Positions 11,916 through 22,981 of a stretch of DNA of 64,000 nucleotides are shown here, one piece after another. The translations under genes and the position numbers were made by a program. Source of the stretch: Verrucomicrobia bacterium IMCC26134 (GTDB lineage Bacteria; Verrucomicrobiota; Verrucomicrobiia; Opitutales; Opitutaceae); the NCBI GenBank assembly GCA_000972765.1, contig CP011265.1, positions 1,969,501-2,033,500 on the forward strand. Direction: 5' to 3'. Every line of letters begins with the position of its first letter. Position 1 is the first letter of the stretch. The notes beneath the pieces are model-generated. The model did no database searches. It saw only the letters and a list, made by a program, of their open reading frames with translations, and was not told where the DNA came from.

Positions 11916-13313
11916 TTGCCTTCCGTGGACATCCCCCCCCCTCAACTCCCTGTCGCCATCATAGGAGCCGGCCTTACCGGTCTAAGCGCCGCACACCATC
12001 TTGCCCTCGCCGGTAAGGCGATACGCGTTTATGATGCCTCCGCTGAACCTGGGGGTGCGCTGCGCACCGAACTCCACCCCGACGGATGGTTGATCGAAGC
12101 CGGACCGAATTCTCTGCAGGAAAACCCCGAGGTCGCCAGCCTGATCGCCACCCTCGGCCTCGAATCCGAGCGTATCGCCTGCTCTCCCGCCGCCAAAAAC
12201 CGCTATATCGTCCGCGGTGGCGTTCTGCGCGCGATGCCAGCCAGCCCGGCCGCGTTTATTACGTCCTCTTTTTTCTCAGTCCGCACCAAATTCAAACTCC
12301 TCACCGAGCTTACCCGCCGCCCCTTGCCACGCGTCGAGGACCTGCCCCTCTCCGCCTTCATTCGCGAGCACTTCGGCGACGAACTCGTCACCTACGCCCT
12401 CGATCCTTTCATTTCCGGCATCTACGCGGGCAACGCCGACCTGCTTTCCGCCCGCCATGCCTTCCCCTCCCTTTGGCAAGCCGAGCTGGAACACGGTTCC
12501 CTCGTTCGCGCCCAGATCGCCAGTGCCAAAGCCAAACGAGCCCGTGGCGAGCCCTCCGGTCCGCCCCCCATTGTCAGTTTCAAATCAGGCCTCGCCGCCC
12601 TGCCACGCGCACTCGTCGCCTCTCTGCCGGGCGGGTGCCTGGAGCTGAAGGCCAAAGTCGAAGCACTCCTCCCCCAACCAGACGGAACCTGGCTCGTCCG
12701 CTGGGTGCGCGACGGCACCACCACTACCGAGCGAGTTGGCCAGGTATTGCTCGCGCTCCCGGCTGGGGCCCTCGCCAAACTCACCATCGGCGTCCCTGGC
12801 CTGCCCACTTCACTCTCCTCGCTCGACACACTCGAACACCCTCCGGTCACCTCGCTTTTCCTGGGTTACCGTCGTGCCGATGTAGCGCATCCGCTTGATG
12901 GTTTCGGCGCACTGGTTCCCTCTATCGAAAAGCGCTCGCTGCTAGGAGTTTTGTTCAGCTCTTCTCTTTTCCCCGACCGCGCCCCTGCCGGCCACGTAGC
13001 TATGACCGTCATGGTGGGAGGTTCGCGCCGCCCGGACCTCGCCAGGCTGCCGCAGCAAGAGCTCCTGCCTATCATCCAAAAAGAACTCTCATCCCTGCTG
13101 GGCGTGCGCGGTGCGCCAGTCTTCGTTCGCTCCACCGCATGGCCTCGCGCCATTCCTCAATACAAACTCAACCACGACGAACACCTCGCAGTGATCGCCT
13201 TTGCGGAGGCCCGACACCGGGGACTGTATATCGGCGGAACCGTGCGCGATGGCATCAGCATGACCAACTGCCTAGCCGCCGGCACCAAACTCGCGGCCCG
13301 GGTCACTGCTTGA
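11916..13313 (+). CDS. hemG: protoporphyrinogen oxidase (FAD-dependent, HemY type)
   Basis: This enzyme oxidises protoporphyrinogen IX to protoporphyrin IX. The FAD-binding dinucleotide fold VAIIGAGLTGLSAAHHLALAG is at the N-terminus, followed by GGALRTE and the substrate-entry region. The C-terminal FAD block is LYIGGTVRDGISMTNCLAAG. The length of 465 residues and the amine-oxidase-type architecture identify the HemY class rather than the flavodoxin-like HemG. The start is taken as TTG at 11916; a GTG at 11925 is an equal alternative, and no ATG precedes the fold. It follows hemE after 114 bp and completes coproporphyrinogen to protoporphyrin together with hemF. Confidence 0.92.
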   Translation: MPSVDIPPPQLPVAIIGAGLTGLSAAHHLALAGKAIRVYDASAEPGGALRTELHPDGWLIEAGPNSLQENPEVASLIATLGLESERIACSPAAKNRYIVRGGVLRAMPASPAAFITSSFFSVRTKFKLLTELTRRPLPRVEDLPLSAFIREHFGDELVTYALDPFISGIYAGNADLLSARHAFPSLWQAELEHGSLVRAQIASAKAKRARGEPSGPPPIVSFKSGLAALPRALVASLPGGCLELKAKVEALLPQPDGTWLVRWVRDGTTTTERVGQVLLALPAGALAKLTIGVPGLPTSLSSLDTLEHPPVTSLFLGYRRADVAHPLDGFGALVPSIEKRSLLGVLFSSSLFPDRAPAGHVAMTVMVGGSRRPDLARLPQQELLPIIQKELSSLLGVRGAPVFVRSTAWPRAIPQYKLNHDEHLAVIAFAEARHRGLYIGGTVRDGISMTNCLAAGTKLAARVTA

Positions 13314-13463: not shown

Positions 13464-16388
13464 ATGGCGAACGATCTAAAGCACACCCTCAGCCTCCCCA
13501 AAACCGATTTCCCTATGCGTGGGGATCTCCCTAAGCGCGAACCCGTGCGCCTGGCGTCCTGGGAAAACTTCTCCCTTTACGCCACGCTCCAGGCTAAGCG
13601 AACCGCGGCCGGCGCACCCGCCTTCGTCCTCCATGACGGCCCCCCGTTCACCAATGGCGATGTCCATATCGGAACGGCGCTGAACAAATCCCTCAAGGAC
13701 ATCACCCTTCGCTACAAGTCCCTGCGCGGCTTTCGCACCCCCTACGTCCCCGGTTGGGATTGCCACGGCCTCCCCATCGAGCAAAAAGTCGCCAAGGAAC
13801 TTCAGGCCGCAGGCTTGAGCCTGCCCACCGCCGAGCTCCGCTCGCGCTGCGACGCTTTCGCCGAAAGCTGGATCAAAAAGCAAACCGCCTCATTCAAGCG
13901 TCTCGGTGTCCAAGCCGACTGGGCCAACGAATATAAAACCAAGGCCCCAGCTTTCGAGGCCGATATCCTCCGCACTTTTGCCTCCTTCGTCGAACAGGAC
14001 CTAGTCTATCGCTCCAAGAAACCCGTTTACTGGAGCATCCCCTTCGAAACCGCCCTCGCCGAGGCCGAGATCGAATACGCCGAGCACACTTCCATCGCAA
14101 TATGGGTTAAGTTTCTCGTCCCCGTTACCGAGGCCGATAAATTCGGCCTGCCCTCCGACAAACCGCTCAGTATCATCATCTGGACCACCACCCCCTGGAC
14201 CATCCCAGCCAACCTTGCCATCGCACTGAATCCAGAAATCGAATACACCGTGGCTGACCTCGGCATCGAACGCATACTCGTTTCGAAAGCCCTGCTTCCC
14301 GCCGTCCTCGATGCCGCCAAGATCACCGGCGATGCCGCCTCAGCGGTCATCAGTCCTTCGAACCTTACCATTACCGGTGCCAAGCTCGAAGGCATCCAGC
14401 CCCGACACCCCTTCATAAACCGCCCGTCCCCCGTCGTCCTCGCCGACTACGTCACCACCGACTCAGGCACCGGCTGTGTCCACACCGCCCCCGGCCATGG
14501 CGCCGAGGACTACCTCACCGGCCTCAAATACGGTATGCCCATCTATTGCCCCGTCGGTGACGATGGTCGCTATCTGGACGACGGCCAGCTCCCCGCCGAC
14601 CTCGCAGGCATCACCTGCCTCGAAACCGTAGAGGAGCTCGCCACCAAGAAGCCGAGTCCGGCTAATCTCGCGGTCCTCAAAAAACTCGCCACCCCAGACG
14701 CCGCCACCGGCCACGTCGCCCTGCTCGCCAAGGCAAAATACGTGCACAGCTATCCACATTGCTGGCGCTCCAAGACCCCCATCATCTTCCGCGCCGTGGA
14801 CCAGTGGTTCGTCTCGCTCGATCCCGCAGCCGCGGGACCGGCCACTCCACGACAGAAGGCCCTCGCCGCCATCAAACACGTCACCTGGTTCCCTTCCTGG
14901 GGTCAGGCCCGAATCACCGGCGCCGTCGAGTCCCGCCCCGATTGGTGCATCAGCCGCCAGCGCTCTTGGGGCGTGCCTATAATCGCTTTTTACGACTCAA
15001 ATAAAAAAGCCTACATCGACGCCTCAGTCATTCGCGCCGTAGCCGCCAAGATTGCCGCCCACCCGCACGGCACCAACCTATGGTATGAACTCACCGCCGC
15101 AGAGCTGCTCGCCGGCGTAGCCCTCCCCGACGGTTGGCCTGCCGCCATCGACCTCACTAACGGCCGAGACACCCTCGACGTGTGGCTGGACTCCGGAAGC
15201 TCCCACGCCGCCGTCCTGCGTAACCACCAGGGCACCACCCAGTGGCCGGCCGACCTCTATCTTGAAGGCTCCGACCAGCACCGCGGCTGGTTCCAGTCAT
15301 CCCTTTGGACGAGCGTCATCGCCTTCGGTTCCGCTCCCTACAAAGCCGTGCTTACCCACGGCTTCATCGTCGGCGAGGACGGCAAGAAAATATCAAAGTC
15401 AGGCTCTTACGAAAAACCTCCGACCTCCGACAACTTCATCAACGACTACGGCGCCGACGTCATCCGCCTTTGGCTAGCCTCGCAGGACTTCACCCAGGAC
15501 ATCACCTTGTCCAAAAAAATACTCGATAACGCCGCCGAGCAGTATCGCGGGTTTCGCAACGCTTTCCGCTACCAGCTCTCTATTCTTCACGATTTTGACC
15601 CGTCGAAGGATGCCCTCCCGCACACCAAACTCGACGTCCTCGACCGATGGGCATTGCACCAGACCGCCAAACTCCTCGCCGAGGCTACCGCGGCCTACGA
15701 CGCCTACGAGTTCCATCGTGTCATCAGCCTCTGCGCCCACTTCGTCTCCACCACGCTCTCCGCCGTTTACAACGACGTCTGCAAGGACCGCCTCTACACC
15801 TACGCGGTCAACCACCCCCAGCGCCGCAGCACCCAGACCGCCGTCCACGCCATCCACGGAGTGCTCGTGCGCATACTCGCACCCGTCCTTACCTTCACCG
15901 CCGACGAAGCCTGGTGTCACGCCCACTTCAAGGCCGACCTCGCTCCCGTCGGCGCCCACACGCCCTCCATCCACCTGTCCGACTGGCCCGTCGCGGATGC
16001 CGCTTGGACCGACCCCGCGCTCGACGCCGATTTCACCGAACTCCTCAAGGTCCGCGCCAAGGTCAACGAAGCCCTCGAGCCCCTGCGCCAGGCCGGTCAA
16101 CTGGGTAAATCCCTTGACGCCGCCGTTACATTGGAAGTCACCGGCGGCGACCCGCTCGATGCAGCCCTTCGCCGTCACGAGGCCTTTCTCCCCGAGCTGT
16201 TCATTGTTTCACACGTAGTCCTTGCCGAGACCCCTGCCTCGCAAGCTCTCGTAGTCACTGCAAGACCCGCAACAGAACTCGGACTGGCCCGCTGCCCGCG
16301 GTGCTGGCGCTCAGTGCCCGGCCTGCTTCCCACCGGACACGGGGAGGTTTGCCCGCGCTGCGCCGAGGCCATAACCCCGACACCATAA
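13464..16388 (+). CDS. ileS: isoleucyl-tRNA synthetase
   Basis: This 974-residue class I synthetase charges tRNA-Ile. The HIGH motif appears as DVHIGTALNKSLKD (about residues 63-76) and the KMSKS loop as GKKISKSGSYEKP (about 640). WDCHGLPIE and the editing-domain block (WTTTPWTIPANLA) are present. The C-terminal zinc finger is CPRCWRSV with CPRCAEAI (about 943-966). The ATG at 13464 gives the expected N-terminus with FPMRGDLPKREP. It is transcribed with hemG orientation after a 150-bp gap. I saw no T-box-like leader. Confidence 0.97.
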   Translation: MANDLKHTLSLPKTDFPMRGDLPKREPVRLASWENFSLYATLQAKRTAAGAPAFVLHDGPPFTNGDVHIGTALNKSLKDITLRYKSLRGFRTPYVPGWDCHGLPIEQKVAKELQAAGLSLPTAELRSRCDAFAESWIKKQTASFKRLGVQADWANEYKTKAPAFEADILRTFASFVEQDLVYRSKKPVYWSIPFETALAEAEIEYAEHTSIAIWVKFLVPVTEADKFGLPSDKPLSIIIWTTTPWTIPANLAIALNPEIEYTVADLGIERILVSKALLPAVLDAAKITGDAASAVISPSNLTITGAKLEGIQPRHPFINRPSPVVLADYVTTDSGTGCVHTAPGHGAEDYLTGLKYGMPIYCPVGDDGRYLDDGQLPADLAGITCLETVEELATKKPSPANLAVLKKLATPDAATGHVALLAKAKYVHSYPHCWRSKTPIIFRAVDQWFVSLDPAAAGPATPRQKALAAIKHVTWFPSWGQARITGAVESRPDWCISRQRSWGVPIIAFYDSNKKAYIDASVIRAVAAKIAAHPHGTNLWYELTAAELLAGVALPDGWPAAIDLTNGRDTLDVWLDSGSSHAAVLRNHQGTTQWPADLYLEGSDQHRGWFQSSLWTSVIAFGSAPYKAVLTHGFIVGEDGKKISKSGSYEKPPTSDNFINDYGADVIRLWLASQDFTQDITLSKKILDNAAEQYRGFRNAFRYQLSILHDFDPSKDALPHTKLDVLDRWALHQTAKLLAEATAAYDAYEFHRVISLCAHFVSTTLSAVYNDVCKDRLYTYAVNHPQRRSTQTAVHAIHGVLVRILAPVLTFTADEAWCHAHFKADLAPVGAHTPSIHLSDWPVADAAWTDPALDADFTELLKVRAKVNEALEPLRQAGQLGKSLDAAVTLEVTGGDPLDAALRRHEAFLPELFIVSHVVLAETPASQALVVTARPATELGLARCPRCWRSVPGLLPTGHGEVCPRCAEAITPTP

Positions 16389-16445: not shown

Positions 16446-16710
16446 ATGGCCAAATCAAAATCCAAGCCCGCCCCGAAATCCAAGTCCGTCTCCAAATCCA
16501 AGCCCGCTCCCAAGTCAAAGCCCGCCGCCAAAACCAAGCCCGTCGCCAAGAAAAAGCCCGTCGCCCCCAAAAAGCCCGTGGCCAAGAAAGCGACCAAGCC
16601 TGCCTCCAAATCTTCACCTAAATCCAAGTTGAAACCTGTCTTGAAATCAGTCCCTAAAGTCGCAGCCAAGCCGAAGACCGCAACCGGTTCCAAGGCCCCG
16701 GCGAAATCAG
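16446..16710 (+). repeat. in-frame degenerate Lys/Pro/Ala-coding repeats
   Basis: The 5' part of the DksA-like gene consists of imperfect tandem units encoding variants of KSKPAPK and KPVAKK, such as AAGCCCGCCCCGAAATCCAAG. The repeats stay in frame and encode the basic tail. Such DNA is prone to slippage, so tail length may vary between strains. Confidence 0.8.
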
Positions 16711-17645
16711 TAAAAACCAACAGACACCCGCCCGCCGGCAAACCGGCCAAGGCCATCGCCAAACCCGAACCTTCACGCGCCTCATCCAAGGCCCCCGTTA
16801 AATCTACCGTGTCCGAAAAATCATCCAAAGTATCGTCCTCTTCCGCCAAGCCTGTTACGGGGAAATCCCCCGTCGCATCCGAAGGGAAAAAGCCAAACGG
16901 GGCCGGAGCGGCACGAGAAAAATTGCGTTCCCGTATTCTCGCGCAGAAAACAAAACCAGCCAAACCGGTCGCGTTTTCACTCGATGAAGTGAAGGAGTTC
17001 GCCAAGACGATTTCCAAGAATCAGGCCGCCGAAAGCATCGCCGCACCGGTAAAAGCGAAAGCTGCCGCCAAACATACCATCCTGCAGTCCAACTCGCTAC
17101 GCGCGGCCAAACCGGCCCATATCAAAGCCGCCTCCCTCGCTGATATTCTTGGGTTTAACCCCAAGCAAAAAGCCTCCCACGCCGAAAGCGAAGAGGCGCT
17201 CATTCCCGACAAGTATAAACGTTACTACAAGCTCCTCATCGAGCTTCGCAACCATGTGACGGGACAAGTTGACCAACATTCCGAGGAAACCCTCAAGCGC
17301 TCCGCAAAAGAGGATTCCGGCGACCTCTCCAGCTACGGCACTGATGGCGGCACCGATTCCTTCGATCGCGACTTCGCCCTCAGCCTTGTCGCCAACGAAC
17401 AGGAAGCGCTTGCCGAGATTGAAGCCGCGATCCAGCGCATCAAGGCCGGTAACTACGGCATTTGCGAACACACCCTTAAACCCATCTCCAAAGAGCGTCT
17501 GGTCGCAGTTCCCTTTACCCGTTACACTGCGGAGTCACTGAAGGTAATCGAGAAGACGCGCTACAAGGTTCGCGGCCAGACCGGAATCCTAGGCGAGGGC
17601 GAAGAGGGCGCCAAGGTCGAGGACGACTCCGGCGGCGACGAATAA
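16446..17645 (+). CDS. TraR/DksA-family protein with histone-H1-like lysine-rich tail
   Basis: Residues 1 to about 120 are low-complexity Lys/Pro/Ala repeats (KPAPKSK, KPVAKK), resembling histone H1 tails. The C-terminal part from about residue 255 is DksA-like. A coiled coil (YKRYYKLLIELRNHVTGQV) leads to an acidic tip (GTDGGTDSFDRDFALSL), then a zinc-finger remnant GICEHTLKPISKERL and PFTRYTAESL. Only Cys340 remains of the four cysteines; the others are Thr, Ser or absent, so zinc binding is probably lost. DksA proteins bind RNA polymerase through its secondary channel. The tail may bind DNA or RNA; that is inference. The gene is followed by a strong terminator. Confidence 0.85.
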   Translation: MAKSKSKPAPKSKSVSKSKPAPKSKPAAKTKPVAKKKPVAPKKPVAKKATKPASKSSPKSKLKPVLKSVPKVAAKPKTATGSKAPAKSVKTNRHPPAGKPAKAIAKPEPSRASSKAPVKSTVSEKSSKVSSSSAKPVTGKSPVASEGKKPNGAGAAREKLRSRILAQKTKPAKPVAFSLDEVKEFAKTISKNQAAESIAAPVKAKAAAKHTILQSNSLRAAKPAHIKAASLADILGFNPKQKASHAESEEALIPDKYKRYYKLLIELRNHVTGQVDQHSEETLKRSAKEDSGDLSSYGTDGGTDSFDRDFALSLVANEQEALAEIEAAIQRIKAGNYGICEHTLKPISKERLVAVPFTRYTAESLKVIEKTRYKVRGQTGILGEGEEGAKVEDDSGGDE

Positions 17646-17744: not shown

Positions 17745-18887
17745 ATGCGCTGGCTTGTCCTCACCTCCTCCACAGGCACGGGCCATAACATGCGTGCCGA
17801 GGCCCTCCGCCTCTGGGTCGAGCGTGAATGCGGCTCCGACGTAGAGCTACGCATCCATCAGACGCTCGAGACCACGCACCCGCTCTACCGTTTCGGAGTC
17901 GGTCTCTACAATACCATCCAGCGGCGTGCCCCGCGCCTGCATCACATCTACTTTAATTACCTCGAACTCGCCGGCATGCACCGACACGGCGAACGTATCC
18001 TGGGTCGCGATAAGTTTTCCGCCGCTGTCGCAGCCTTCGCCCCGCACCGCGTCATCAGCGTCCACGCACACACCAACCACGGCTTCTTCACTCTGGCCCG
18101 ACGCGCCCTGCCGGCCTCACCTCCACGCTGCCTCACCTACTGCGGCGAGCTTTTCGGCGGCTACGGCTTTAGCCGTCACTGGGCCAACCCTTCCGCCGAT
18201 GGCTTTATCGGTGCCACACCCGAGGTCTGCGCCGCCGCCCGTGCCGTCGGCACGCCCACCGAGAACGTATATCACGGCGGTTTTCTACTCCGTCCTTCGC
18301 TCTACGCAACGGAAGAGGAGGGTGAAGCCCAAGCCGTCGCCCTCGCCGCCGAACTCGGTCTGGATCGCCGTGCCTTTACCGTTGTGCTCAGCACCGGACT
18401 CGCCGGCGCCAACAACCACCTTCCCATCCTGCGCCGCCTGGCCGCCACCGGGAAAAAGTTCCAGGTCATCGCCCTTTGTTCGCGCAATACCAAGGCGCTC
18501 CACGCCATCGAGGCCTACGCCGCCGGGCACCCCTCCCTCACGATACGCGCCCTCGGCCAGACCGACCGCATACTGGCCCTGCTTTGTCTTGCTTCCGCCT
18601 TAGTCGCCCGCCCCGGCACCGGAGCAACCAGTGAATCCATCCTGACCGGCACACCGCTCATTCACAATTGCATCGGCGGCATCATGCCGCAGGAACTCAT
18701 CACCATCCAACACTGCCGTCAGCACGCCTGCGCGCTCACCGCCCGCTCCGCTCGCGAGGTCGTTAACTGCATCTTAAAATTACAAGCTGAACCCACTTTT
18801 ACCGTCGAACTTCGCCATCGCCTGCACGCCGCCCGTCCCGTCGGCAATCCTGCACAAATCGTTCGCTGGATTCTGAAACGGCCTTGA
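17745..18887 (+). CDS. MGDG-synthase-like glycosyltransferase (GT28-type)
   Basis: The 380-residue protein begins with VLTSSTGTGHNMRAEAL, matching the N-terminal S-x-G-x-GH motif of monogalactosyldiacylglycerol synthase and processive lipid glucosyltransferases. The C-terminal half has the GT-B sugar-nucleotide site: VVLSTGLAGANNH, LGQTDRILALLCLASALVARPGTGATSE and GTPLIHNC. The family transfers sugars from UDP-sugars to membrane lipids at the cytoplasmic face. The acceptor here is unknown. Its stop overlaps the region of the next gene, an SCP2-like protein, and the run continues to the sugar genes at 19721-22981. This suggests glycolipid or lipid-linked glycan synthesis, by inference. Confidence 0.75.
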   Translation: MRWLVLTSSTGTGHNMRAEALRLWVERECGSDVELRIHQTLETTHPLYRFGVGLYNTIQRRAPRLHHIYFNYLELAGMHRHGERILGRDKFSAAVAAFAPHRVISVHAHTNHGFFTLARRALPASPPRCLTYCGELFGGYGFSRHWANPSADGFIGATPEVCAAARAVGTPTENVYHGGFLLRPSLYATEEEGEAQAVALAAELGLDRRAFTVVLSTGLAGANNHLPILRRLAATGKKFQVIALCSRNTKALHAIEAYAAGHPSLTIRALGQTDRILALLCLASALVARPGTGATSESILTGTPLIHNCIGGIMPQELITIQHCRQHACALTARSAREVVNCILKLQAEPTFTVELRHRLHAARPVGNPAQIVRWILKRP

Positions 18888-18901
18888 TAGAATCAACCCC
18901 G

Positions 18902-19693
18902 ATGGCCGATTACTCCGACACCTCCCCGTCCTTGCTTGCCGCACTCTATCTGGAGGCCGTTCTCCCCGCCATTCCCGTCTTGGCCGCACAGGACTCAGGA
19001 CTTTCTTCCGCTCTCGCCGGGCCTGACTTCGGCGTGGTTTTCGCCACATCTCGCGGTTTGCGCACACGCCTTTCCGTCCGCGATGGCATCACGTCCGCCT
19101 GTTTCGGCCCCGCAGCAGTGCCTCAGCCCGGCGACGTCCATATCTGGTTCCCATCACCTGCCCAGGCGGTTCGAGCCCTTGATGGCAGGCGCCGGCCCGC
19201 TCTCGCCCTGCCGATCGGCGGATGGTTCCAGCTGCCGCAACTGAAACGTATAAACGTAGCAGGCAAGCGGCTCGAGGCTCTACTCAACAATCGCCCCGCC
19301 GCCACTGACCCTGCCCTCGCCTTCCACGCTTGGGGCAATCTAGTGGTCGGACTCGCCGCCGCAGCCACCTGGTTGCGCCACCATCCCGACGCCCCCGCCA
19401 CCCGCGCCCGCCTCGGCTCCGGTGTCGTGGTATTCTCCTGCCCGGCGCTTCCCGCCCCACTGTGGCTCGACCTTGCCACTCTCGTCACCGGCAGCGGCCC
19501 GACGCCCCCCGACGCCATGCTCATGGTCACTATCACCTTCGCCGACCTCGCCACGCTCCTCGCCGAACTTGATCAGCAGCTCGACGCGTCCGCCGCCCTC
19601 GGCCTGGGAACCCTACGCATTACCGGTCACCTGCCTCTGGCGGAAAACCTCGGACTTCTCCTCCTAAAAGTTGGCGCCCTCCTCAAACCATGA
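18902..19693 (+). CDS. protein with two SCP2-like lipid-binding halves (tentative)
   Basis: This 263-residue protein has no familiar catalytic motif. Residues about 30-125 follow the SCP2 pattern: a hydrophobic strand and DG turn (GVVFATSRGL, LSVRDGITSACFG), then GDVHIWFPSPAQAVRAL, and an amphipathic C-terminal helix. Residues about 140-263 repeat it (VVVFSCPALP, AMLMVTITFADLATLLAEL, GTLRITGHLPLAENLGLLLLKVGALL). SCP2 folds bind sterols, fatty acyl chains or isoprenoids (as in UbiJ/UbiT). The ATG at 18902 lies 14 bp after the glycosyltransferase stop; a TTG at 18884 would overlap it. The assignment is by pattern only and needs a profile search. Confidence 0.5.
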   Translation: MADYSDTSPSLLAALYLEAVLPAIPVLAAQDSGLSSALAGPDFGVVFATSRGLRTRLSVRDGITSACFGPAAVPQPGDVHIWFPSPAQAVRALDGRRRPALALPIGGWFQLPQLKRINVAGKRLEALLNNRPAATDPALAFHAWGNLVVGLAAAATWLRHHPDAPATRARLGSGVVVFSCPALPAPLWLDLATLVTGSGPTPPDAMLMVTITFADLATLLAELDQQLDASAALGLGTLRITGHLPLAENLGLLLLKVGALLKP

Positions 19694-19720
19694 ACGCCTT
19701 CTTCCTGAATTTGACTCGCG

Positions 19721-21022
19721 ATGGCTATGCGGGAAGCGAAGGTAATCTACAGCGTCCGAACCTGCGTTCCCTTGCCTCCTTCACGTGAGCCTCTTCCGTT
19801 GAATTTCGCCAACTCCCAAGCTCTCTTCCGCCGCGCCGCTGAGGTCATCCCCGGCGGTATCTACGGCCACACCACGCCCGCCGCCACCCTGCCGGGAGCC
19901 ACGCCCTACTATGCAGTCGAGGGCTTCGGCTGCCGCTACCGCGATCTCGATGGCAACACCTTCATCGATTTCCTCTGCGGCTATGGCCCGATGTTGCTCG
20001 GCTACCACCACCCGGAGGTCGAGGACGCCGCCACCGCCGCCCGCGCGCGCGGCGCCGCCTTTAATCACCCCACCCCGCTCATGGTCGAGCTAGCCGAGGC
20101 CCTTGTCGCCCGCATCGACTTCGCCGATTGGGCAGTCTTCGCCAAAAACGGCGCCGACCTCACCAGCTGGACCGTCATGGTTGCCCGCGAGTATACCGGT
20201 CGGCCAAAAATCCTCAAAATTCGCGGCGCCTACCATGGCACCCACGCCTGGTGCACCCTCGGTCACGGCGGCCTCATCCCCGAGGATCGCGCCCACATCC
20301 ACGATTTCCCCTTCAACGATGTCGCCGCCTTGGAGACCCTTTTCGCCCTCCATCGCGGCCGAATAGCCGGGCTCATCCTCACGCCTTTTCACCACCCCGC
20401 CTTCGCCGACTCCGAGCTGCCTTCGCCCGCTTTCGTCGCCGCCTGCAACCGCCTCTGCCGCGAGCATGGCACGCTCCAGATCCTCGACGATGTGCGCTGC
20501 GGTTTCCGGCTCTCGACCGGCGGCTCGCATTCGGTTTACGGCTACACGCCCGACCTCTCGATCTACTGCAAGGCGATCGCCAACGGTCACCCCCTCTCCG
20601 CCGCCGTCGGCCGCGCCGCCCTCAAGCCCGCCGCCAGCCGGGTCTTCCTCACCGGCAGCTACTGGAACGATCCCGCCCCCATGGCCGCCGCTCTTGCCAC
20701 CCTCGCCGTCATCGAGCGCGACAACATCCCCGCCCGCCTCGCCGCCCTCGGCGAACGCTTCGTCACCGGCTTCCTCGCCCTTGGCGAAAAACACGGCGTC
20801 CCCCTCCGCGCCAGCGGCCCACCCGCCATGCCCTATGTGCGAGTCGCAGACGATCCGTCCTTCATCCGCACCCAGCAGCTCTGCGCCGCCGCTGTTGCCG
20901 AGGGCGTGTTCCTCCACCCGCATCACAACTGGTTCATCAGCGCCGCCCATACCGAAGCCGATATCGATGAGGCACTGCAACGGCTCGACACCGCCTTCCT
21001 CAACCTTTCCCTTTCATCATGA
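19721..21022 (+). CDS. class III PLP-dependent aminotransferase (glutamate-1-semialdehyde aminotransferase-like)
   Basis: It shows the fold-type I aminotransferase pattern: SQALFRRAAEVIPGGI, DLDGNTFIDFLCGYGPMLLGY, KNGADLTSWTVMVAREYTGR, the PLP-phosphate and Asp region LQILDDVRCGFRLS, and the Schiff-base lysine in YCKAIANGHPLSA (Lys284). It resembles HemL but sits with sugar-nucleotide genes, so it may aminate a keto sugar or make an amino-acid decoration rather than aminolevulinate. ATG 19721 gives 433 residues. Homology starts near TTG 19799, which may be the real start. Its stop overlaps the next ATG by 4 bp (ATGA). Confidence 0.8.
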   Translation: MAMREAKVIYSVRTCVPLPPSREPLPLNFANSQALFRRAAEVIPGGIYGHTTPAATLPGATPYYAVEGFGCRYRDLDGNTFIDFLCGYGPMLLGYHHPEVEDAATAARARGAAFNHPTPLMVELAEALVARIDFADWAVFAKNGADLTSWTVMVAREYTGRPKILKIRGAYHGTHAWCTLGHGGLIPEDRAHIHDFPFNDVAALETLFALHRGRIAGLILTPFHHPAFADSELPSPAFVAACNRLCREHGTLQILDDVRCGFRLSTGGSHSVYGYTPDLSIYCKAIANGHPLSAAVGRAALKPAASRVFLTGSYWNDPAPMAAALATLAVIERDNIPARLAALGERFVTGFLALGEKHGVPLRASGPPAMPYVRVADDPSFIRTQQLCAAAVAEGVFLHPHHNWFISAAHTEADIDEALQRLDTAFLNLSLSS

Positions 21023-21888
21023 TCATCCTCCTCGGCGGTTCCGGCTACGTTGGCCAGGCTTACCAGCAACTTCTCGCGCAAAAGGGCATTCCCTTCCGCA
21101 ATCTGCGGCGCGCCGAGCTCGACTACACCGACTCCGCTACCCTCACCGACTTCCTGCGCGAGACCCGGCCGGATTTCCTCATCAACGCCGCCGGCTACAC
21201 TGGCAAACCTAATGTGGACGCCTGCGAACTCCACAAAGCAGAGTGCCTCTTCGGCAACGCCGTCCTCCCCGGCCGCGTCGCCGAAGCCTGCGCGTCCGCC
21301 GGCGTGCCATGGGGCCACGTCTCCTCCGGTTGTATCTTCACCGGCGCCCGTCCCGACGGCTCCGGTTTCACCGAAACCGACGCACCCAACTTCACCTTCC
21401 GCCGCGATAACTGCTCCTTTTATTCCGGCACCAAGGCACTCGGCGAAGAAACCCTGGTCGGCGCGCCGGACGTCTACATCTGGCGCCTGCGGATCCCTTT
21501 TGATCATCGGGAAAGCCCGCGTAACTACCTCACTAAGCTGATGCGCTATGATCGCCTGCTCGAGGCCGCCAACAGCATCTCTCAACTCCAAGAGTTCGTC
21601 GCCGCCACCTTCGCCTGCTGGGAAAAGCGTGTTCCTTTCGGCACCTACAACGTCACCAACCCCGGCCCTGTCACCACCCGCGAGGTCGTCGATCTGATTC
21701 TACAGAGCGGAGTCCACCCGAAAGACTACCGATTCTTCACCGATGAAGCTGAGTTCATGCGCATTGCAGCCAAGACCCCCCGCAGCAACTGCGTCATGTC
21801 CTCCGCCAAACTCACCGCCGCCGGCATCACACTGACCCCGGTGCGCGAGGCGATTCAACGCGCTCTGGCGAATTGGCAAAAAGCCTGA
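21019..21888 (+). CDS. RmlD-like NAD(P)-dependent sugar-nucleotide reductase
   Basis: The 289-residue short-chain dehydrogenase starts with a Rossmann motif MIILLGGSGYVGQAYQQLL, followed by LDYTDSATLTDFLRETRPDFLINAAGYTG, close to dTDP-4-dehydrorhamnose reductase (RmlD). The catalytic Ser/Tyr/Lys region is HVSSGCIFTG and FYSGTKALGEE (Tyr-x3-Lys). It overlaps the aminotransferase by 4 bp, which indicates translational coupling, and precedes the dTDP-glucose 4,6-dehydratase by 40 bp. It may reduce a keto-sugar made by that enzyme. The exact product is not clear from sequence. Confidence 0.8.
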   Translation: MIILLGGSGYVGQAYQQLLAQKGIPFRNLRRAELDYTDSATLTDFLRETRPDFLINAAGYTGKPNVDACELHKAECLFGNAVLPGRVAEACASAGVPWGHVSSGCIFTGARPDGSGFTETDAPNFTFRRDNCSFYSGTKALGEETLVGAPDVYIWRLRIPFDHRESPRNYLTKLMRYDRLLEAANSISQLQEFVAATFACWEKRVPFGTYNVTNPGPVTTREVVDLILQSGVHPKDYRFFTDEAEFMRIAAKTPRSNCVMSSAKLTAAGITLTPVREAIQRALANWQKA

Positions 21889-21928
21889 CGTCCCTTTTCG
21901 CGTCCACTAGGGCATACCTCTTCTTTTT

Positions 21929-22981
21929 ATGAAAATCCTAGTCACAGGCGGCGCAGGTTTTATCGGCTCAAACCTAGTCCGACACCTCCTCGCCTCGACC
22001 GCCAACGAGGTTCTCACCGTAGATGCGCTAACCTACGCCGGAAACCTAAACTCGCTCACCGACGTCGCCGCGCATCCGCGCCACCGCTTTGTCCAGGCCG
22101 ACATCACCGACGCCGTCCTCCTCCGCCATCTCTTCGCCGACTTCTCCCCTGGCTGGGTCATGCACCTCGCCGCCGAATCCCACGTGGATCGCTCGATCGA
22201 CGGCCCCGGAGCCTTTATCCAGACCAACGTCGTCGGCACTTTCACCCTGCTTCAGGCCGCCCGCGCGCATTTTGACTCTCTGACGGGACCCGCCCGCGAT
22301 CGTTTCCGTTTTCTTCACGTCTCAACCGATGAGGTCTATGGATCGCTCGGCCCATCCGGCCTCTTCACCGAGCACACGCCCTACGACCCGCACTCGCCCT
22401 ACTCTGCTTCCAAAGCCGCCAGCGACCACCTTGCCCGGGCCTGGGCCGACACCTACCGCCTGCCCGTCCTCGTTACCAACTGCTCCAACAACTACGGTCC
22501 CTACCAGTTCCCCGAAAAACTCATCCCCGTCGTCATCCTCAAGGCCCTGCGCGGCGACCCGATCCCCGTCTACGGTAAAGGGGAAAACATCCGCGACTGG
22601 CTCTACGTCGGTGACCACTGCGAGGCCCTCCACACCGTCGTCACCTCAGGCCGCCCCGGACAGACCTACAACATCGGCGGCAATAACGAGCGCAAAAACA
22701 TCGACCTCGTCCGCCTGCTCTGCACCTTGCTCGACGAACTCCGCCCCCGCGCCGACGGCAAGTCCTACGCTGCACAAATCAGTTTCGTCGCCGACCGCCC
22801 CGGGCACGATCTGCGCTACGCCATAGACGCCACCAAAATCAAAACCGAGCTCGGATGGACCCCGAAGCAAGACCACTCCTCCGGCTTCCGCCAGACCGTC
22901 GCCTGGTATCTGGCCAACGAATCTTGGTGGCGCCCCATCCTCGACGGCACCTACCGACTCGAGCGGTTGGGGTCGGCCTGA
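21929..22981 (+). CDS. rfbB: dTDP-glucose 4,6-dehydratase
   Basis: RmlB/RfbB makes dTDP-4-keto-6-deoxyglucose. [20 protein letters not shown] carries the NAD-binding GxxGxx[27 protein letters not shown] (catalytic Thr-Asp-Glu), [11 protein letters not shown] (Tyr-x3-Lys) and [17 protein letters not shown] are diagnostic. The length of 350 is typical. A pyrimidine-rich leader (CCTCTTCTTTTT) replaces a Shine-Dalgarno sequence. No rmlA or rmlC is in the window, so the dTDP-rhamnose pathway is incomplete here. The product may instead feed the neighbouring reductase and aminotransferase. Confidence 0.92.

Follow-up and report, generated by a model that had tools for sequence, protein, structure and literature searches.

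The block at positions 17745-22981 of the window (the whole 64,000-nucleotide stretch of DNA that was analysed) raises the question of which of its five genes belong together, and on what kind of molecule they might act. A lipid glycosyltransferase and a putative lipid carrier are followed there by an aminotransferase and two genes of the type seen in sugar-nucleotide synthesis. The first-pass annotation had described this gene order, with a 14-bp gap between the first two genes and a 4-bp overlap between the aminotransferase and RmlD-like genes, and all five open reading frames were confirmed at the positions it gave:

17745..18887, + strand: GT-B lipid glycosyltransferase (GT), MGDG-synthase/YpfP-like, of the "type B" subfamily, 380 aa
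18902..19693, + strand: putative tandem SCP2-like lipid carrier, 263 aa from the ATG
18902..19309, + strand: N-terminal SCP2-like half, residues 1-136, assigned by homology to the C-terminal half and not by fold search
19310..19690, + strand: C-terminal SCP2 half, residues 137-263 (Pfam SCP2 at residues 158-251; fold match 8af3)
19721..21022, + strand: class III, FumI-like aminotransferase (AT), for which the true start may be the TTG at 19799
21019..21888, + strand: RmlD-like SDR, a neighbour outside the conserved unit
21929..22981, + strand: RmlB, dTDP-glucose 4,6-dehydratase (TIGR01181), a neighbour outside the conserved unit

The SCP2-like reading frame is already open from a TTG at 18884, upstream of the ATG at 18902. 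The AT start may lie up to 26 codons downstream of 19721, as its relatives mostly match from about residues 14-31 and FumI from residue 33. Scanning the window for Rfam families and tRNAs gave no matches.

The conserved unit consists of the GT, the SCP2-like protein and AT. Linkage of the GT and SCP2-like genes in relatives had been set beforehand as a test, and in 33 of 36 SCP2-like loci a GT on the same strand preceded the SCP2-like gene (a count that excludes a second, 37-residue SCP2 fragment of genome G229). The upstream GT match ended within about 415 bp of the SCP2-like gene in 32 loci and 1.1 kb from it in one, and AT was found downstream within 0.71 kb in 30 of the 36, all these distances being rough because the SCP2-like gene ends of distant loci were estimated; the AT neighbours were located by tblastn. 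The SCP2-like and AT genes remained adjacent where the GT was not upstream: in G005 the GT lies about 1.75 Mb from the pair, and the loci of G105 and G216 showed no GT ahead of the SCP2-like gene. Among 387 Verrucomicrobiota genomes, with the best few candidates per genome scored, the SCP2-like protein, AT and a type-B GT (types A and B being defined by identity to the window GT) all occurred in the same 13; the genomes are related and hence the counts are not independent. These 13 genomes represent nine families, with AT at 49-100% identity and the type-B GT at 42-100%. AT was on another contig in four of them, where the GT and SCP2-like genes were still a tight pair. Within the window's genus only 6 of 15 genomes encode the SCP2-like protein.

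The two genes downstream of AT behaved differently. RmlB scored 477.5 bits against TIGR01181, above the cut-off of 365.1, and the RmlD-like gene was rejected as a true RmlD (82.4 bits versus the rmlD cut-off of 224.05). Matches to these genes at >60% identity were found near the SCP2-like gene in only 3 of the 27 genomes having at least 3 kb of downstream sequence (3 of 35 overall, the other 8 having too little). A sugar-nucleotide operon was therefore rejected as the conserved unit, and the "sugar-nucleotide run" that the GT had been said to lead is mostly local, the regular partner being AT. The same result bears on the amino- or deoxysugar route suggested in the first-pass annotation. Spelled out, RmlB would produce a keto-sugar nucleotide, AT would aminate it, the RmlD-like SDR would modify it and the GT would place the sugar on an SCP2-carried lipid. 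Although the window's gene order and the AT/RmlD-like overlap suit this route, as do the RmlD-like and RmlB genes that follow in relatives G102 and G222 (78-83% identity), no match to the pair was found close to the SCP2-like gene in 24 of those 27 genomes or near the four unlinked ATs, and in G222 the pair lies 5 kb past AT. Some class III enzymes do use sugars, and a C-6' aminotransferase matched AT with an E value of 1.8e-35, but AT is far nearer FumI, and the GT relatives adjoin acyl-chain and serine-palmitoyltransferase-like (SPT-like) genes. We consider the sugar route unlikely.

The 263-residue protein had been thought to contain two SCP2-like halves, with AlphaFold modelling named as the check. 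For the C-terminal half this was upheld by fold. The whole protein was modelled with a pLDDT of 89.7 and a pTM of 0.88 (falling to about 60-68 at residues 91-110), and residues 139-260 of the model matched a sterol carrier protein (8af3) with a Z score of 12.1 and an rmsd of 2.5 over 111 residues. Pfam SCP2 (PF02036) matched the C-terminal half only, at 18.0 bits and thus under the cut-off of 21.3; a short homologue in a relative passed that cut-off (24.9 bits), and 4 of 12 aligned homologues matched at E<=1. A Pfam SCP2 search of the window's own genome returned nothing at E<=0.001, and a PDB sequence search with the SCP2-like alignment gave one chance match (E 0.5). The N-terminal half may share the fold, to judge from its homology to the C-terminal half; folded alone it gave a low-confidence model (63.7) having no Foldseek match at E<=0.001. 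Profile comparison of the two halves by hhalign gave a probability of 86.8 and an E value of 4.3e-6, whereas an earlier comparison with shallow half profiles had given a probability of only 2%. The deeper profiles comprised 28 N-half and 34 C-half rows, and shuffled and reversed controls were run on the 28 common rows; five short versions, G259 and G581 were left out of the N-half profile, G259 was left out of both, and a G109 fragment was omitted from the start. An SCP2 match in G084 was dropped (E 7.8e-4, one stop, absent among the profile-search matches). The reading frame is under purifying selection (dN 0.19, dS 1.09 versus L067). The protein would fit a role in presenting a lipid to the GT.

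The nearest solved relative of AT was FumI (6hbs), at 41.9% identity over 394 aligned residues, a level that does not fix the AT substrate. The E value of this PDB match was 9.5e-99, the next best being 1.2e-49. AT residue K284, presumably the PLP lysine, aligned with a lysine of FumI, and the DD motif was also aligned. AT was closer to FumI (334 bits) than to the aminomutase (173 bits), and its assignment as hemL was rejected (206.8 bits versus a cut-off of 527.3). PMC2933618 describes FumI, the fumonisin/aminopentol aminotransferase, as a catabolic enzyme of Sphingopyxis; it deaminates a sphinganine-like compound, hydrolysed fumonisin B1, by passing the 2-amino group to pyruvate. This relationship and the lipid-gene context suggest that AT may act on a long-chain lipid. 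Alternatively, AT could act on a small molecule (an amino acid or headgroup) later attached to the lipid, with the SCP2-like protein serving the GT only. The four genomes in which AT is unlinked from an otherwise tight GT-SCP2 pair would be accounted for in this way, and AT does also resemble glutamate-1-semialdehyde aminomutase. However, where the GT is not upstream it is the SCP2-like and AT genes that form the adjacent pair, and AT, like FumI, aligns without the insertions seen against aminomutase 3l44. A small-molecule substrate seems improbable to us.

The lipid-type assignment of the GT was borne out by its matches. It scored 22.4 bits against Pfam MGDG_synth (PF06925/GT28), below the curated cut-off of 25, and its PDB sequence matches were MGD1 (E 9e-8, the alignment covering residues 3-344) and processive diacylglycerol beta-glucosyltransferase (E 2e-6); NCBIfam PRK13609 gave a partial match. 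In a GT tree of 54 rows (43 different; 10 type A and 44 type B), which carried long-branch warnings, a single 100/100 branch separated the two types. The ten type-A GT loci (16-17 kb) contained an ACP-FabA/Z fusion in at least nine, a ketosynthase in at least eight, an SDR in at least seven and an SPT-like gene in at least six, all low estimates because antisense ORFs were picked in several of these loci. In other families (L136, L138 and L139) the type-B triad has neighbours of these same kinds, as it does within the window's genus in L109 and L115 (the L115 triad being cut by a contig end).

An SPT-like orthologue was present in 25 of 25 tested SCP2-like genomes (15 + 10) and in 0 of 20 tested genomes lacking such a GT. 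For the SPT-like protein of L055 the nearest solved chains were annotated as serine palmitoyltransferase (8guh and 3a2b); against the NCBIfam SPT models it scored below the cut-offs (370.4 versus 640 bits and 336.0 versus 500). The locus SDR weakly resembled 3-ketodihydrosphingosine reductase, one of many SDR models that it matched. The ketosynthase lay inside the available locus sequence in only 5 of 35 genomes; in the window genome it is about 227 kb, and the SPT-like gene about 75 kb, from the block. Genomes with type-A GTs have the SPT-like gene without the SCP2-like protein or AT, and hence the carrier is not required for the pathway as such; one genome (G359) has a type-A-like GT and no SPT orthologue. 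That the GT-SCP2-AT set travels with an SPT-like enzyme in some Verrucomicrobiota suggests a bacterial glycolipid pathway of which little is known. The GT could instead be a plain diacylglycerol glycosyltransferase of the MGDG/YpfP type, with the SCP2-like protein and AT accessory for other reasons. MGD1 and the processive glucosyltransferase are indeed its nearest solved relatives, and the partial PRK13609 match agrees, but these matches are weak and under curated cut-offs, the relatives adjoin SPT, ketosynthase and ACP genes, and the SPT orthologue was absent from all 20 tested genomes that lack this kind of GT. We think this explanation doubtful, if somewhat less so than the other two.

The reading we prefer, to which we give a probability of roughly one half, is that a lipid carrier serves the GT and AT as one functional unit in an SPT-dependent glycolipid pathway. 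It is based on gene order, co-occurrence, the SCP2 fold of the C-terminal half, the homology of the halves, the FumI relationship and the linkage to and co-occurrence with SPT-pathway genes; from these we infer the identity of the lipid, the action of AT on it, the hand-off between enzymes and the identity of the sugar. The long-chain lipid would come from an SPT-like (alpha-oxoamine synthase) pathway that has a dedicated ACP-dehydratase, ketosynthase and short-chain reductase, and would be completed by the GT, the SCP2-like protein and AT. The tandem SCP2 protein would bind the hydrophobic intermediate and hand it to the two enzymes; AT would alter a long-chain amine or ketone, and a sugar would be attached by the GT. 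A more specific and more tentative version, which we hold somewhat less probable than not, is a lipid-carrier metabolon in which the tandem SCP2 protein shuttles an SPT-derived intermediate between the FumI-like AT and the type-B GT to give an undescribed glycolipid class having a trans- or de-aminated long chain.

If the preferred reading is true, bacterial sphingolipid-type synthesis would turn out to include a soluble lipid carrier as well as an aminotransferase, and a role of FumI-like enzymes outside mycotoxin breakdown would be suggested; the metabolon would give such enzymes a biosynthetic home. Among the matches listed (titles and abstract openings) in open-access literature on SCP2 with glycosyltransferases, on sphingolipids or glycolipids of Verrucomicrobiota and Opitutaceae, and on polar lipids, no description of the GT-SCP2-AT set was found. 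PMC11334938 has already reported Spt-like proteins from 22 Verrucomicrobiota MAGs, and the authors of PMC11087976 state that flippases or lipid transporters were not yet identified for the pathway they studied.

Several known systems share parts of this arrangement. UbiJ, an SCP2 accessory protein of ubiquinone synthesis, has the same fold (entries 6h6n-6h6p were among the best structure matches), and a modelling study (PMC9499169) proposed that it holds a lipid intermediate inside an enzyme complex. The tandem SCP2 protein may play an analogous role, but differs in its doubled domain and in its partners, a GT and an aminotransferase. The window GT aligns with MGD1 as would a glycolipid GT of the MGDG synthase or YpfP (UgtP) kind, yet falls below the family cut-offs and has relatives linked to SPT-type genes. 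Unlike catabolic FumI, AT accompanies a biosynthetic lipid locus. Bacterial sphingolipid synthesis, as described in PMC11087976 and PMC12134224 (SPT, ceramide synthase, ceramide reductase, and PfSgaAB of Pseudomonas), has in common with the present loci an SPT-like enzyme, a ketoreductase-like SDR, an ACP and GTs, whereas here an SCP2 carrier and an aminotransferase belong to the set, and a ketosynthase and an ACP-dehydratase fusion are found near the GT.

The five genes lie on the plus strand of a 4.0-Mb genome assembled as a single contig, and both the genes and their spacing are as the first-pass annotation described:

17745-18887 (+), GT-B lipid glycosyltransferase (GT)
18902-19693 (+), SCP2-like protein of 263 residues
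19721-21022 (+), class III aminotransferase (AT)
21019-21888 (+), RmlD-like reductase gene
21929-22981 (+), RmlB, dTDP-glucose 4,6-dehydratase

The GT matches Pfam MGDG_synth below the cut-off, and its alignment with MGD1 spans residues 3-344. Pfam places the AT in class III, RmlB scores above its equivalog cut-off and the RmlD-like gene below its own. Upstream lie a flavin amine oxidoreductase (11916-13313, plus strand; Pfam Amino_oxidase E 4e-48), perhaps a protoporphyrinogen oxidase, followed directly by a large gene that reads as IleS by eye (13464-16388). Next is a 399-residue protein (16446-17645, plus strand) having a long Lys/Ala/Pro-rich N-terminal tail, histone-H1-like by eye. Towards its C-terminus it has a DksA/TraR-type zinc finger that scores under the Pfam cut-off (E 0.0041).

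The SCP2-like gene is under purifying selection. Its Pfam SCP2 match is below cut-off and confined to the C-terminal half of the protein. In genus g2, one of the compared genera, the homologue has 183 residues (loci L050, 9366-9917, and L051, 9624-10175) and consists of the C-half only, the N-terminal half having been lost with retention of the GT and AT neighbours. The L050 protein passes the Pfam cut-off (24.9 bits), and that of L051 gave no SCP2 match at E<=0.01. An AlphaFold model of the 263-residue protein (12 sequences; pLDDT 89.7, pTM 0.88) had SCP2 proteins and UbiJ, the SCP2 accessory protein of ubiquinone synthesis, as its top PDB matches in Foldseek. VIA-align gave Z 12.1 over 111 residues for 8af3 and Z 11.8 for the SCP-2-like domain of human MFE-2, with nearly all alignments to SCP2 proteins falling on residues ~139-260. 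Folded alone, the N-half gave pLDDT 63.7 and no significant Foldseek match. A profile of 28 N-halves aligned in register with one of 34 C-halves over 119 columns (probability 86.8%, E 4.3e-6, score 39.3); the controls scored 13.4 (C-profile reversed) and no more than 15.4 (60 column shuffles). A shallower comparison gave only 2% probability. Given this homology between the halves, the protein seems to have arisen by internal duplication. Hence, of the two SCP2-like halves originally proposed, the C-half stands by predicted fold, and the N-half looks SCP2-like through its homology to the C-half, not by a fold match of its own.

The SCP2-like protein was found in 25 of 252 genomes of the family, 6 of 15 of the window's genus and 13 of 387 sampled from the phylum. 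Type-B GTs (the subfamily of the window GT; 42-100% identity) and the AT (49-100%, E<=1e-80) were each found in the identical 13 phylum genomes, which span nine families, three outside the order; these searches used a draw of the same size (387), and genome handles agree where printed. Another 33 phylum genomes had only a more distant type-A GT (33-38%), and one, G392, had both types; each search scored a few top candidates per genome, so a gene recorded as absent may in some cases have been missed. In a sample of 100 family genomes, a GT of at least 48% identity and a clear SCP2-like match occurred in the same ten genomes, of which three have the short SCP2-like version; one further SCP2-like match, in G084, was dropped. 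An AT of at least 54% identity occurred in 13 of 130 genomes, all containing the SCP2-like protein. The genomes are related, and thus neither these co-occurrence counts nor the linkage counts below are independent. Two genomes of the genus, G044 and G075, lack the GT, SCP2-like protein, AT and SPT-like (serine-palmitoyltransferase-like alpha-oxoamine synthase) orthologue, which looks like joint loss.

Among 36 SCP2-like genes from 35 genomes, 33 are preceded by a GT on the same strand (the exceptions being G105, G005 and G216) and 30 are followed by an AT. Of the six without a downstream AT, two lie at contig ends, and the AT sits on a different contig in G440, G370, G578 and G581. The RmlD-like and RmlB genes, which the annotation had placed in one run with these genes, were nearby in 3 of 27 genomes having at least 3 kb of downstream sequence and do not belong to the conserved unit. 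In G102, of the same genus, a small helix-turn-helix protein (L109 12907-13374; MarR/TrmB-like, below Pfam cut-offs) separates the AT from the RmlD-like gene. In two loci from other families (L136 3987-6553, L138 9219-11843) an additional GT (PF13528) adjoins the triad of GT, SCP2-like protein and AT, together with proteins of 339, 327 and 159 residues lacking Pfam matches.

Ten type-A GT loci (16-17 kb) contained an ACP-FabA/Z fusion (9), a ketosynthase (8), an SDR (7) and an SPT-like gene (6), as grouped by similarity clusters and identified via members from L053, L055 and L056. The type-B triad adjoins the same gene kinds in G486, G324 and G392, of other families, and in G102; in G109, also of the genus, the order KS-SDR-GT4-GT-SCP2 runs to the contig end. 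A ketosynthase fell within the extracted locus in 5 of 35 genomes, and in the window's genome the ketosynthase group and SPT-like gene are at sites away from the block. An SPT-like orthologue (52-73%; partial in G105) was present in all tested genomes with the SCP2-like protein (15/15 and 10/10 in two sets), in 4/4 and 1/2 type-A GT genomes, and in 0/2 and 0/18 without such a GT (best matches at most 36%). The ketosynthase was less telling, being present in 20 of 21 genomes including G044, which lacks the GT (57% homologue). The nearest solved relatives of the L055 SPT-like protein are serine palmitoyltransferases, but it scores under the NCBIfam SPT cut-offs and hence may use a different amino acid. 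Spt-like proteins have already been reported in 22 Verrucomicrobiota MAGs (PMC11334938).

The best solved relative of the AT is the fumonisin/aminopentol aminotransferase FumI (E 9.5e-99; next 1.2e-49), with 165 of 394 aligned residues identical. A lysine and the DD motif coincide in the two proteins, and the insertions that appear when the AT is aligned to the aminomutase 3l44 are absent. The reaction of FumI moves the 2-amino group from hydrolysed fumonisin B1 onto pyruvate (PMC2933618), and fumonisins are described as resembling sphingosine and sphinganine (PMC9858248). As a FumI-like enzyme here meets an SPT-linked GT, we infer that the AT acts on a long-chain lipid. Alternatively, its substrate could be a sugar or headgroup. 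The neighbours of ATs unlinked from GT-SCP2 gave no lipid signal: in two genomes the gene following the AT is inositol-monophosphatase-like (L145 7297-9377, by Pfam; L146 8100-10357, by eye), and elsewhere the neighbours are others.

The earlier suggestion of a lipid carrier is strengthened, and a sugar-nucleotide pathway as the joint function of the block is not supported. A modelling study proposed that, within the Ubi complex, the UbiJ SCP2 domain holds intermediates of ubiquinone synthesis and releases product to the membrane (PMC9499169). By analogy, the tandem protein would pass an intermediate between the two enzymes, AT and GT. Support for the GT as one putative client comes from its tight pairing with the SCP2-like gene, with 4-bp overlaps in L140 and L141, and support for the AT as the other from the SCP2-AT pairs lacking an upstream GT in G005, G105 and G216. 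The triad would then be a variant on known kinds of system, the SCP2 accessory protein and SPT-type glycolipid synthesis.
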